Shown here piece after piece: positions 49,513 to 55,508 of a stretch of DNA of 64,000 nucleotides (its first letter is position 1; every line of letters starts with the position of its first letter). Source of the DNA: Myxococcales bacterium (lineage in GTDB: Bacteria > Myxococcota > UBA727 > VGSZ01); assembly GCA_023248635.1 (NCBI GenBank), contig JAHFED010000028.1, positions 1 to 64,000 of the forward strand, written 5' to 3'. The notes beneath the pieces are model-generated. The model saw only the letters and a list, made by a program, of their open reading frames with translations, searched no databases and was not told the DNA's origin. A program made the translations under genes and the position numbers.

Positions 49513-51195
49513 ATGAAGCCCAAGCGCTCCTCGCTCCTGCCGACGTCGGCTCTCACAGCCATGGCCTGCAGCCTCGCCTTGTTCAGCAGCGCCGGCCGTG
49601 CGGACTACATCGATCACTTCGCCACCCGCACCGACGTCGGCCTCTACAAGGTGCCCTCTCAGGGAGCGACCCGCGTGCTGGTAGTGCCGGTGTTCATCGA
49701 CGACATCGCCTATCCCGATGGATCGGAAGAGGCCTTTCTCGACGAGATAACGGCCTTTTACGCCGACGACGACGCGCTGATCTTCGAGGGCGGCTTTCGC
49801 TTCACCAGCTATTGGGAACAGGCCTCGCTCGGTCGCTTCCGCCCCTCGGCCGAGGTCGCCGCTCCGGTGCATTTCTCGACGTGCCCGCCCTTGGGCGACA
49901 ACGCCGACTGCGAGATCCCGCGGGGCGCAGGCCTGGCACAGGGCGACGTGCAGGGCGCGGTGGCCGTGCTCACCGATGCCCTGGCCTTCATGGACGAGAT
50001 CTTTCAATGCGCGGCCACGGGGCCCGGAGCCGGCACGAGCTGCACCGCCGGCGGCGGCGTCGACTTCGCGCGCTACGACACGAGCGGAAACCAAGAAGGG
50101 GTGGCCGACGGCTTCGTCGACGGCGTCATCATCGTCAGCAACGCCGGTTTTCCCGGCATCGCGCTGCCGGTGAAGGACCTCGCCACCAATCCCCTCCTCT
50201 CTTTTCTCGGGCCTTTTCCGAGCTTTGCCTATCCCGATGATGACGGCGTCGTCGTCGCCAGCGTCGGCATCGCCGGCCGCACCGGCCGCCCCGGGCGCGA
50301 GACCTTCGTGTCGGTCCACGAGTTTGGGCACCTCCTCGGCTTCTGCGATCTCTACAATGAAGCAGGATCGACCAACGATCTTCCCTATTCATTGATGGGT
50401 GGCTGGTTCTACGCCGACGCCGGCTCGCTGCTCGACCCCTTTTCGCGGGTGGCCATCGGTTGGGCCAACTTGATTCAGGTCGGTGGGCCGGGGAGCTTCG
50501 AGCTGCCGTCGGCGGCGCGCAGCGGCACGGTGCTCAAGGTCGGCAGCGGCGACGAGTTCTTCCTCGTCGAGCACCGCCGCAAGCTGGTCGATGTCCTCGA
50601 CGGCGACATGGGCATCGACTCTGGGGTGCTGGTGGAGCGCGTGCGCCTGGCCAAGAGACCGTCGCCGACGCCGGGGGACTATTTCAACACGCTGCAGAGC
50701 TGCGTCAACTGTACGCCTTTTGATCCGATGTTGATGATCGAGGAGGCCGATGGCAACTATGATCTGCAGCTCAACCGCGGCCGCGACGACGCCAGCGACC
50801 TCTTTCAGAGCGGCGATGCCGTGGCGCCGTCGACGGACACGGCGGCCCGCTCGGCGGCCCACGTGGTGTTTTCGACCAACCTCTTGAGCGGTGCTTCGAC
50901 GGGCTTGACCATCACGGTCAGCAGCAGCGACGACGAAGGCGCCGTCGTCGACGTCGACGCTCCCGCTCTTGCCGACCCCTGCCTGACCTTGGGCGATCTC
51001 TGCCCCGGCGCCTGTGCCGCCGACGACGAAGGCCACGGGCGCTGCGGTGATTTCCAGACCTTCCCGCCCACCTTCGCCACTGGCGCCCTCCCTCCGACGC
51101 CCCTCGGATGCCCCGGCTGCACAAGCACGTCGGGGGCAGACGCCGGGGCGCTAGCACTTTCCCTCCTCCTGCTTCGACGCCGACAGCGGGCCTGA
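49513..51195 (+). CDS. Secreted M6-like metalloprotease with MYXO-CTERM-like tail
   Basis: The protein has 560 residues. A signal peptide covers about 1-30 (ALTAMACSLALFSSAGRA). The catalytic block SVHEFGHLLGFCDLYNEAGS, near residue 268, gives HExxHxxGxxD, the metzincin-like motif of M6 (immune inhibitor A) peptidases, followed by the Met-turn-like YSLMGGWFY. The C-terminus reads LGCPGCTSTSGADAGALALS, then LLLLRRRQRA. A Cys-containing motif, one hydrophobic helix and an Arg cluster make up the MYXO-CTERM sorting signal processed by myxosortase for surface display or secretion. It is probably a surface or secreted protease used in predation or matrix turnover; no substrate is known. Confidence 0.9.
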   Translation: MKPKRSSLLPTSALTAMACSLALFSSAGRADYIDHFATRTDVGLYKVPSQGATRVLVVPVFIDDIAYPDGSEEAFLDEITAFYADDDALIFEGGFRFTSYWEQASLGRFRPSAEVAAPVHFSTCPPLGDNADCEIPRGAGLAQGDVQGAVAVLTDALAFMDEIFQCAATGPGAGTSCTAGGGVDFARYDTSGNQEGVADGFVDGVIIVSNAGFPGIALPVKDLATNPLLSFLGPFPSFAYPDDDGVVVASVGIAGRTGRPGRETFVSVHEFGHLLGFCDLYNEAGSTNDLPYSLMGGWFYADAGSLLDPFSRVAIGWANLIQVGGPGSFELPSAARSGTVLKVGSGDEFFLVEHRRKLVDVLDGDMGIDSGVLVERVRLAKRPSPTPGDYFNTLQSCVNCTPFDPMLMIEEADGNYDLQLNRGRDDASDLFQSGDAVAPSTDTAARSAAHVVFSTNLLSGASTGLTITVSSSDDEGAVVDVDAPALADPCLTLGDLCPGACAADDEGHGRCGDFQTFPPTFATGALPPTPLGCPGCTSTSGADAGALALSLLLLRRRQRA

Positions 51196-51266: not shown

Positions 51267-53387
51267 ATGATCACCTCTCCCCGCTCGCAGCCGCTCCGCA
51301 ACCCCACCGCCCACACCCTGGTGGGAAGCACGGCCCCGGCAGCGTCGCCGACGAGCCCGACTCCAGCGACAACGGCAACGACGACGACGAATTCGTCTCC
51401 GCAGCCCAATGCCCACGTCACCGGTGGCGCCCCCGGTTCGTCGACGACCACGACCGGACCCAGCACCTCCGTCGGCGCTCGCGGCGTCGCAGCTGGCGTG
51501 GCCACGGTGCCGGGCGGCATCGCCAAGCTCGTCGATCGCAAGGCCTTCGAGGCCTTCGCCAAGCGCGACGACGTGCCAGGTGCGGCCAACGTGTTGGCGA
51601 TGAAATTTCTGATCACCGACGTCGACACCAAGCATCCCAAGGTCTGGTTCGTCGACTCCAACAAGAACGACTTCCACTACTACTTCGCGCGCGACTCCCT
51701 CGGGGTGACTCTCGACCTCGCGACCTTCAATTCGCAGACCTACTTCACCGACAAGAGGAAGTTCATCGCCGGCACCATCGTCGCCCACGACGGCTACACC
51801 GACCAAAACGGCGACAAGGGCGCCTACGCCGTCGAGTTTTGGCCCACCGATCCCGTGCACGCCAAGCACGTGAACCTCGCCTTCGACGCCGTCGCCAAAG
51901 CGATGCCCTTTGCTGGCACCAAGCTGGCCTATCACCCCGCTGGCGACACCCAAGAAGAGCTGCGCAAGAGCGAGTCCCGTTCGCTGGCCCGCTATGGGGT
52001 GCCCGTGATCTCCACCGAGAAGCTCTTCGAAGGCGTGAACTTCAGCCCGCTCAACCAAGAGACCAGCTTCGGCATGCTGCGCGTCGTCGACCCCGCCGTG
52101 CCCTCCACCACGCCTTTCTCACCCCGCGACATCGTGTTGTTCAAAGGCAGTACACCCAATGATCTGACACATGTCGCCGGGATTATCACGGAAGTACCGC
52201 AGACGCCGCTGTCCCACATCAATCTGAAAGCCAAGCAAGACAAGGTTCCAAACGCCTACATCAAGGACGCGCTGCAGGATCCGAACATCAAGAACTTGGT
52301 CGGCAAGCTGGTCAAATATGAGGTCACTGGCCAGGGCTACAGGATCACCGCAGCTACGGCCGCCGAGGTTGCCGCCTACGACAAAAAGGTCAGGCCGACG
52401 TCGCCTCAGGTACCCAAGCCCGATCTGAGCGTCAAAACGATCAAAGCGTTCAAAGACCTCTCGGTGAAAGACGCCAAAGCCTTCGGAGGCAAAACGACCA
52501 ATCTGGCAGAGATGCGGCACATCTTGGCTCCAGCCCAGATGCCCGATGGGTTCGGCATTCCCTTTTCCTTCTATGACGACTTCATGAAGGCCAACGGTCT
52601 CTACGACAAAGCCCTCAAGATGCAGGCGGACCCGAAATTCCAAAGCGACGTCGCCTTTCGCGATGAACAGCTCAAGGATTTCCGCAAGGAGCTGAAGAAG
52701 GCACCGGTGCCGGCGGCGCTTCAGGTCCAGCTCGACAAGGTCGAAGCTGACATGTTGGCGAAGCTCCCGCCCGGATCGGGGCTGCGGCTGCGCTCGTCGA
52801 CCAACAACGAAGACCTCGACGGCTTCAACGGCGCCGGCCTCTATGACAGCTACACTGTGCGCCCCAAGGACAAAGAGACCGTCGGCGTCGAGATCAAGAA
52901 GGTCTGGGCCAGCATGTGGAATTTCCGCGCCTTCGAAGAACGCGACTTCTGGAAGATTCCGCACGACAAGGCGATGATGGCCGTTACCGTACATGGAAAC
53001 GTCGATGGTGAGCTGGCCAATGGTGTAGCAATCACCAAGAACATCTACGACGAAAACTGGCCGGGGTTCTATGTGAACTCGCAGGTGGGCGAGAACCTGG
53101 TGACCAACCCCGATCCCAAGAGCCGGCCCGAAGAGATGCTTGTGTCGGCGATCGGCGAGCACGGCGAATACGAAACGCAGCGTATTCGCAAGTCGTCGGA
53201 GCTCGGTGGCAAACCGGTGCTGACGGCCGCACAGGTCAAAGAGCTCGTTTCTGGCCTGGAGAAAATCCAGGCCCATTTCAAGAAAGTCCTGCACAAAGAA
53301 AACGACAAGGGCTTCGCAATGGATGTGGAGTGGAAGGTGCTTCCCACGGGGCACATTTACATCAAGCAGGCGCGGCCCGTGGTGTGA
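51267..53387 (+). CDS. PEP-synthase/PPDK-type dikinase with glucan, water dikinase-like domain order
   Basis: The protein has 706 residues. The first 65 residues are Ser/Thr/Pro-rich with no signal peptide. An unrecognised domain follows (about 75-240, with VWFVDSNKNDFHYYFARDSL and AYAVEFWPTDPVHAKHVN). Residues about 240-375 are a swivelling phosphohistidine domain: DIVLFKGSTPNDLTHVAGII, then VPQTPLSHINLKAKQDKVPN, where the central His near 317 is the phosphate carrier. The ATP-grasp half of PPDK (PPDK_N) comes last: AFGGKTTNLAEMRHI, MPDGFGIPFSFYDDFMKANG, GLRLRSSTNNEDLDGFNGAG. Normal PEP synthases have the opposite order plus a PEP-binding barrel, which is absent. His domain before ATP domain at the C-terminus is the layout of plant glucan, water dikinases. 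The substrate is therefore perhaps a polysaccharide. Confidence 0.8.
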   Translation: MITSPRSQPLRNPTAHTLVGSTAPAASPTSPTPATTATTTTNSSPQPNAHVTGGAPGSSTTTTGPSTSVGARGVAAGVATVPGGIAKLVDRKAFEAFAKRDDVPGAANVLAMKFLITDVDTKHPKVWFVDSNKNDFHYYFARDSLGVTLDLATFNSQTYFTDKRKFIAGTIVAHDGYTDQNGDKGAYAVEFWPTDPVHAKHVNLAFDAVAKAMPFAGTKLAYHPAGDTQEELRKSESRSLARYGVPVISTEKLFEGVNFSPLNQETSFGMLRVVDPAVPSTTPFSPRDIVLFKGSTPNDLTHVAGIITEVPQTPLSHINLKAKQDKVPNAYIKDALQDPNIKNLVGKLVKYEVTGQGYRITAATAAEVAAYDKKVRPTSPQVPKPDLSVKTIKAFKDLSVKDAKAFGGKTTNLAEMRHILAPAQMPDGFGIPFSFYDDFMKANGLYDKALKMQADPKFQSDVAFRDEQLKDFRKELKKAPVPAALQVQLDKVEADMLAKLPPGSGLRLRSSTNNEDLDGFNGAGLYDSYTVRPKDKETVGVEIKKVWASMWNFRAFEERDFWKIPHDKAMMAVTVHGNVDGELANGVAITKNIYDENWPGFYVNSQVGENLVTNPDPKSRPEEMLVSAIGEHGEYETQRIRKSSELGGKPVLTAAQVKELVSGLEKIQAHFKKVLHKENDKGFAMDVEWKVLPTGHIYIKQARPVV

Positions 53388-53471: not shown

Positions 53472-55508
53472 ATGGCCACCAAGAAGAAGAGCGCCGAGCT
53501 CGAGACGACGCCGGCGGAGCGCAGGCAGCCCAAGCAGCGAGAGATCGCGGTCAGCGAGTTTTTCTCCAAGAACCGCCACCTGCTCGGCTTCGATTCGCCG
53601 CAGAAGGCGTTGCTGACGGCAGTGCGCGAGGCCGTCGACAACGCTCTGGACGCCTGTGAGGAGGCCCGCATTTTTCCCGACGTCACCGTCGAGATCACCG
53701 AGATCGAAGCCGCGCCGGTGGCCCAGGGTCCGACCCGCTATCGAGTGCGCATCGAGGACAACGGACCCGGCATTCCCGAACCCGAGATGGGCAAGATCTT
53801 CGCGAAGCTGCTGTACGGCTCGAAGTTCCACCGCCTCAAGCAGTCGCGCGGCCAACAGGGCATCGGCATCTCCGCAGCCGTGATGTACGGACAAATGACC
53901 ACTGGCGAACCGGCGCTGGTGGTTTCCAAGATGCAAGGTGCGCGCGCCAATCGGGTTCGACTTTTTATCGATACGGCGAAGAACGAACCCAAGATAGAGC
54001 ACACTGACGTCGACGACAGTGACTGGTGGAAGCAGAAGGCTTCCGGCACCTCCATCGAGATTTTATTGGTGGGCCAGTATAAGGCAGGTCGTCACGGCGT
54101 AGAGGCCTATTTAAAGCAAACTGGTCTGGCCAATCCGCACGCGCGCATTCTCTTTCGCTTTCACAAGGCGGCCACCAAATCGCAGCCCGCGGGGAGCAGC
54201 GAGACCGTCGACATGCCCCGCGTGGTGCATGAGCTGCCCAAGGAGCCCATCGAAATCAAGCCGCACCCCCACGGGGTCGAGCTCGGCACCCTGCAGCGCC
54301 TGCTCGAGGACGCCGGCAAGCAGCACGTCGTCACCTTTCTGTCGACGAGCTTCTCGCGTGTGTCCGCGGCCCAAGCGGCCGAGATCGTGACCAACGGCGG
54401 GCTCAAGCCCACGCGGCCCTGCTCATCGCTGACGCGCCCCGAAGTCGAACAACTCTATAAGGCACTGCAAGCCCAGAAGCTGATGGCGCCGCCGACGTCG
54501 TGCTTGTCGCCCATCGGTGAGCCGGCCTTGATCAAGGGCCTCTATGCCCTCTTCGGCGATCGCAAGAACCTGCAAGACGACGACGACCTCGATCACCTCA
54601 CCCCCGACAAACCCGCGGGGACAAAGACCCTGCTTTCCAATGAGCAACGTGAACAGGCCGACGCCGGCTCTCTCTCTCAGGCCGCCGAACAAGCTGCGGC
54701 CCTCGAGGCCAGCAAGAAGAAGACGAAGAAGCCGGGCAAGACTCCGCCCGATGATGATCAACTGGGCCTCTTTCAGAGCCGCTCGGGCGGGACGACGACG
54801 ACGACGACGTCGTCTTTGCCGCCGCAGTCCATCGATGTTCCCCAGCCGGCCGAGAGGGCCCGCATTGAAAAAGACGAAGAGGGCGCCGACGTCCTCGTGC
54901 TGGGCGAGAACGTCTTTGTGACCGCAGTGACCCGACCGCCGGCCATCTACCGGGGCAATCCCTTTCAGGTCGAGTGTGGAATTCTCTACAGTAAAGATCT
55001 CAAAGCCGACGAATTAGCTAAGGTTTTCCGCTTCGCCAACCGGGTGCCTTTGCTCTATCAGGCATCGGCCTGTGCCATGATGAAGGCGGTGGTGTCCGCG
55101 CCGTGGCGGTCCTACGAGGTGCAGCAGAGCAAGGGCGCACCACCCACCGGACCTCTTGTGCTGCTGGTGCACATCGCCTCGGCCTGGGTTCCCTACACTT
55201 CAGAGTCCAAGGAAGCCATCGCTCACTATCCAGAGGTGCTCAAAGAAATGCGACTGGCGGTCATGGAGGCCGGCCGACGTCTGCAACGCTTCTTGCGTCG
55301 TCGTCGTCGTGAGGTCGATGAGCTGAAGAAGCGCGACTACATGACCAAGTACCTCGACACCATCGGCGAGGCGTTGCAGGACATCCTCGGTCTCTCCGCC
55401 GCCGATCGCGACCGGACCACGGAGAGCCTGAAGCTGGTGCTCGAAAAATCGCGCACCCAAGCCATCAACGACGAGGAGCGGGGCCGCAAGCGCAAGGGCG
55501 CGGCTTGA
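53472..55508 (+). CDS. top6B: DNA topoisomerase VI subunit B
   Basis: The protein has 678 residues. GHKL ATPase motifs are complete: N-box with Glu53/Asn57 in REAVDNALDACEEA, G1 as EDNGPGIPEPEMG near 95, and G2 as SRGQQGIGISAAVMYGQMTT near 125. A helix-two-turn-helix part (about 290-360) and the transducer domain with PPAIYRGNPFQVECGILYSK and VPLLYQASACAMMKAV follow. A Lys/Ala/Thr-rich insert (about 385-470, containing KKKTKKPGKTPPDDD) sits between them. With Top6A it makes a type IIB topoisomerase that relaxes supercoils by double-strand passage. Top6A is normally adjacent but is not found here; the next gene is a small lipoprotein. The function may depend on a distant Top6A. Confidence 0.95.
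   Translation: MATKKKSAELETTPAERRQPKQREIAVSEFFSKNRHLLGFDSPQKALLTAVREAVDNALDACEEARIFPDVTVEITEIEAAPVAQGPTRYRVRIEDNGPGIPEPEMGKIFAKLLYGSKFHRLKQSRGQQGIGISAAVMYGQMTTGEPALVVSKMQGARANRVRLFIDTAKNEPKIEHTDVDDSDWWKQKASGTSIEILLVGQYKAGRHGVEAYLKQTGLANPHARILFRFHKAATKSQPAGSSETVDMPRVVHELPKEPIEIKPHPHGVELGTLQRLLEDAGKQHVVTFLSTSFSRVSAAQAAEIVTNGGLKPTRPCSSLTRPEVEQLYKALQAQKLMAPPTSCLSPIGEPALIKGLYALFGDRKNLQDDDDLDHLTPDKPAGTKTLLSNEQREQADAGSLSQAAEQAAALEASKKKTKKPGKTPPDDDQLGLFQSRSGGTTTTTTSSLPPQSIDVPQPAERARIEKDEEGADVLVLGENVFVTAVTRPPAIYRGNPFQVECGILYSKDLKADELAKVFRFANRVPLLYQASACAMMKAVVSAPWRSYEVQQSKGAPPTGPLVLLVHIASAWVPYTSESKEAIAHYPEVLKEMRLAVMEAGRRLQRFLRRRRREVDELKKRDYMTKYLDTIGEALQDILGLSAADRDRTTESLKLVLEKSRTQAINDEERGRKRKGAA

Follow-up and report, generated by a model that had tools for sequence, protein, structure and literature searches.

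The window, that is, the whole stretch of DNA analysed here, comprises 64,000 nucleotides from a Myxococcales bacterium (GenBank assembly GCA_023248635.1, contig JAHFED010000028.1, positions 1 to 64,000). The gene under study encodes a dikinase-family protein with the domain order of glucan, water dikinases (GWD), and is placed between an M6-type protease gene and a topoisomerase VI B gene (Table 1). The open reading frame is genuine, homologues in other genomes (39-59% identity) matching it over nearly the full length. The product, hereafter the window protein, has no signal peptide, and no hydrophobic stretch was found at any upstream start. On the upstream side (49513-51195, + strand), a secreted M6-like metalloprotease with a MYXO-CTERM-like C-terminus stops 71 bp before the dikinase gene. 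Downstream (53472-55508, + strand) lies an archaeal-type DNA topoisomerase VI subunit B in a bacterial genome (608 bits, above the NCBIfam cut-off), with subunit A located on another contig (G000:C78:13835-14035, minus strand).

Table 1. The dikinase gene and the parts of its product, in window coordinates
Feature	Position	Strand	Basis
GWD-order dikinase-family protein, 706 aa	51267..53387	+	ORF with ATG start
Residues 1-71, Thr/Ser/Pro/Ala-rich tail, predicted disordered	51267..51479	+	pLDDT <50, composition
Residues 75-275 (about), N-domain, proposed acceptor-binding	51489..52091	+	AF2, no Pfam match
Residues 276-390, GWD-type swivel phosphohistidine domain	52092..52436	+	GWD1_pHisD similarity
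His317, proposed phosphorylated histidine	52215..52217	+	invariant in 105/105
Residues 405-705, PPDK_N ATP-grasp domain (Lys409, Arg509, Glu688, Gln701, Arg703)	52479..53381	+	Pfam, Foldseek

An AF2 model of the window protein, built with 61 family sequences, reached a mean pLDDT of 88, with most values above 90 past residue 71. The C-terminal ATP domain is matched by PPDK_N in Pfam (E 7e-31, 108 bits against a cut-off of 27), and PLSHINLKAKQDKVPN, the phosphohistidine loop containing His317, sits N-terminal to it. No PEP-utilising barrel was matched in the window protein by Pfam or NCBIfam profiles, and Pfam gave nothing further besides PPDK_N and a sub-threshold match to GWD1_pHisD. Pfam, NCBIfam and AF2 therefore agree with the initial annotation, which had described a barrel-less protein with a histidine domain ahead of a C-terminal PPDK-type ATP domain, and its comparison with GWD and PWD also holds, as in these enzymes the swivel directly precedes the C-terminal ATP-grasp and the PEP barrel is absent.

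Foldseek related the C-terminal part to RPH, PEP synthase and HpeI (E 2e-16 to 3e-13). The protein shares ATP-grasp and swivel domains with PEP synthase and PPDK, but lacks their PEP/pyruvate barrel and has another domain order. Placement among ordinary PEP synthases, one outcome that would have overturned the first proposal, was excluded by scores of 90 and 102 bits against equivalog cut-offs of 740 (TIGR01418) and 598 (NF005057), respectively. The NCBIfam PPDK match also fell far below cut-off and, like those of the PEP synthase and RPH models, was confined to the ATP domain. RPH, whose order is ATP-grasp, substrate domain and swivel (PMC4844700), was likewise rejected at 50 bits against 999 (NF041857), the order of its domains being the reverse of that seen here.

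The histidine loop of the dikinase family reads T308-EVPQTPLS-H317, with LSH present and GG absent. In GWD the corresponding loop has the same spacing and also carries LSH. The loop of PEP synthase, RPH and HpeH is T/SxxGGxxxH (PMC12167813). In the window protein, GWD1_pHisD (PF22973) aligns with residues 302-364 (E 0.02, 14.9 bits, below the curated cut-off of 27). It is the sole Pfam swivel model matched in the family, by 6/61 members (best E 8e-6), and the cut-off is passed by one homologue only, in genome G025 (28.8 bits). When 58 genomes were scanned with PF22973, six of the eight matches fell at loci of the dikinase family or of the family's size, among them the top four and the single match above cut-off; in the window's own genome (G000) the single match at E<=0.01 was the dikinase locus. 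The early observation of an LSH-type loop was in this way corroborated, the similarity to GWD1_pHisD being weak but specific. Matches to the GWD-specific DUF7067 were at noise level, with none at the dikinase locus.

Conservation over an alignment of 105 members is strict at the expected functional positions. His317, Lys409, Arg509, Ser511, Glu515 and Asp516 are present in 105/105, so that every aligned member carries the ATP-grasp Lys and Arg and the swivel His that mark the PPDK_N/swivel dikinase superfamily. Glu688, Gln701 and Arg703 are found in 96/96 of the aligned members covering those positions, and a D-x-E ... K-Q-x-R pattern occurs further along in 7/9 cut sequences. When aligned to the RPH ATP domain, Lys409 corresponds to Lys22, Arg509 to Arg117 and Glu688 to Glu297, while Ser528 (Ser in 104/105) stands at the phosphate-binding Thr136. 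In RPH, Lys22 and Arg117 are required for function and a Glu297 to Ala change is tolerated (PMC4844700).

The N-terminal part, a domain of no recognised family, sets the dikinases described here apart from GWD and PWD. The initial annotation had reported an unrecognised domain of 165 residues; the lack of a Pfam match stands (window protein and 61 family N-domains), but the domain spans about 200 residues and is preceded by the 71-residue disordered tail. Folded alone by AF2, it reached a pLDDT of 92.7. The best match in a fold search of the PDB had an E-value of just 0.097 and a probability of 0.15, and comparison with PDB sequences and viral folds gave nothing convincing. A match to CpcJ (E 0.0015) was taken as chance, since it consisted of two repeats with an i-Evalue of about 6 each. 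The modelled N-domain thus appears to lack any relative of solved structure, at the level of the fold or at least of the domain family. It is present in every member, and only Lys113 (101/103), His137 (105/105) and Gly269 (105/105) are conserved at >=97%. His137 is therefore the sole non-glycine position of the domain that does not vary, and such invariance in an otherwise divergent domain suggests, from the alignment, an active-site role. As for the earlier idea that this part binds the substrate, a new domain that could hold an acceptor has been found, whereas the role itself is one that we infer.

The dikinase gene is a member of a widespread family and not a single odd gene. When 39 genomes, all of the same phylum, were searched, 22 yielded relatives at E <= 0.001, some of these matches covering the shared ATP domain only. 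Across GTDB genomes, at least 555 relatives were confirmed with a profile-pattern scan, and at least 11 phyla are represented in the family. The best 80 of the at least 555, a set skewed towards the window protein's end of the family, belong to Verrucomicrobiota, Planctomycetota, Myxococcota, Bacteroidota, Acidobacteriota, Poribacteria, Spirochaetota, Actinomycetota, Chloroflexota, Pseudomonadota, Kiritimatiellota, Fermentibacterota and one cyanobacterial assembly. No viral or phage relative with the full architecture was found. A literature search found no paper describing the family, and the bacterial relatives looked up were annotated only as "PEP/pyruvate-binding domain-containing protein", a name under which the coherence of the family goes unseen, along with its new domain, its strictly conserved second histidine and the export signal of most members.

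Indeed, the majority of relatives start with a Sec or lipoprotein signal, as predicted at motif level. A strict, home-made signal rule was positive for 69/110 family members against 291/800 neighbouring ORFs (36%; odds ratio 2.9, p 2e-7); single calls are rough because of this background, and the rule also overlooks clear cases such as L076. Export is independently supported by C-terminal T9SS sorting domains in members from Bacteroidota, a dockerin in one spirochaete member and EF-hands in one acidobacterial member. In two Myxococcota lipoprotein relatives (L048 and L049), a lamin-tail domain is fused to the dikinase core. Export signals are lacking in the window protein and in its closest relatives, and in the tree a 12-row clade containing it (SH-aLRT 94) holds 9/10 of the representative signal-less members. 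The genome of the window also encodes a lipobox-bearing paralogue of 982 aa (L037, 9727-12672, + strand of G000:C67), which is predicted to be exported. The signal-bearing relatives retain all ATP-site residues. Exported members would have no obvious source of ATP, which argues against simple dikinase chemistry there, even though their ATP sites are intact. Export through Tat of a pre-charged phosphohistidine was considered and rejected, as only one plausible twin-arginine signal was found (L142).

The best reading of these data is that of a new dikinase with a GWD-like core order, a proposed acceptor domain of an undescribed kind, and a largely exported family around it. Judging from the sequences, it is rather probable that the window protein is a dikinase-type phosphotransferase of three domains, passing phosphate from ATP to His317 and on to an acceptor held in the N-domain, within a mostly exported family of which the window's clade is cytoplasmic. 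The chemistry is carried over from RPH and PEP synthase. The C-terminal ATP-grasp domain would bind ATP.Mg, and the swivel domain would deliver His317, which would accept the beta-phosphate with release of AMP and Pi. Phospho-His317 would then swing over to an acceptor bound in the N-domain and set by His137 and Lys113, and phosphorylate it on a hydroxyl. The substrate of exported members is probably a polymer at the cell surface or outside the cell, and the window's clade, which has lost the signal peptide or never had one, probably acts in the cytoplasm. The narrower proposition, in which exported, surface-anchored dikinases phosphorylate such polymers through a phosphohistidine, with ATP or another donor and the new acceptor fold, the window's clade being a cytoplasmic branch, is put forward only tentatively.

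The acceptor cannot be read from the surroundings of the gene, as no neighbourhood is conserved across the family: recurring ones belong to near-identical genomes or to general secretome genes. The Streptomyces plasmid relatives (24% identity; L003 7884-9890 and L034 7881-9893) are flanked by ATP-grasp and MFS transporter genes, and these loci perhaps constitute a small biosynthetic operon. This setting, typical of small-molecule chemistry, together with the nearest structures being RPH, PEP synthase and HpeI, would agree with a small-molecule dikinase like rifampin phosphotransferase (RPH) or HpeHI, in which the N-domain binds an antibiotic, a phenol or another metabolite. The family shares with RPH and HpeHI/PpsAB-type enzymes the ATP-grasp fold and key residues, and presumably the swivel-histidine mechanism. 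However, its N-domain resembles neither the RIF-binding domain, absent here, nor any PDB fold, the substrate domain of RPH being unrelated, and export with surface-attachment modules, seen in most members, sets the family apart from RPH. We regard this alternative as somewhat unlikely.

A bacterial alpha-glucan, water dikinase, phosphorylating glycogen or starch as first proposed for this gene, is distinctly improbable. The domain order, the LSH loop and the GWD1_pHisD similarity speak for it, as do GT5 glycogen-synthase-type genes in 5/6 genomes with close homologues. Yet no CBM45 or CBM20 starch-binding module was detected in the window protein or in 61 family N-domains, no glucan gene is linked to the dikinase, and the family, about half the length of GWD/PWD and bacterial, is mostly exported, i.e., away from glycogen. 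Moreover, a glgB-type branching enzyme was above cut-off in 2/6 of these genomes and not above it in 4/6, including G000, in a search that would miss GH57-type branching enzymes. The proposed alpha-glucan substrate was accordingly not upheld.

An ATP-dependent ligase of the PigC/RedH type, in which the phosphohistidine would activate a substrate for condensation, is very improbable: weak matches of the ATP domain to the PigC and RedH models and the biosynthetic look of the Streptomyces loci speak for it, but the match is not better than to other PPDK_N proteins and the gene is an orphan outside those loci. Equally hard to credit is a protein with a regulatory or structural role, limited to sensing or scavenging nucleotide and phosphorylating no acceptor, since, for all that exported relatives are located where ATP is scarce and there is no conserved partner, the transfer histidine and the residues that bind phosphate do not vary over at least 11 phyla.

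For the exported enzymes to work extracellularly, they would need a source of ATP that is not known in bacteria. Should a glycan be the substrate of the cytoplasmic branch, bacteria may have had the GWD architecture before plants did; in the cyanobacterium Gloeomargarita, an analysis of 2019 detected no clear homologue of GWD (PMC6805951). No high-resolution structure of GWD was available by early 2026 (PMC12892837), and the window protein, with about 630 ordered residues, may be an easier subject.
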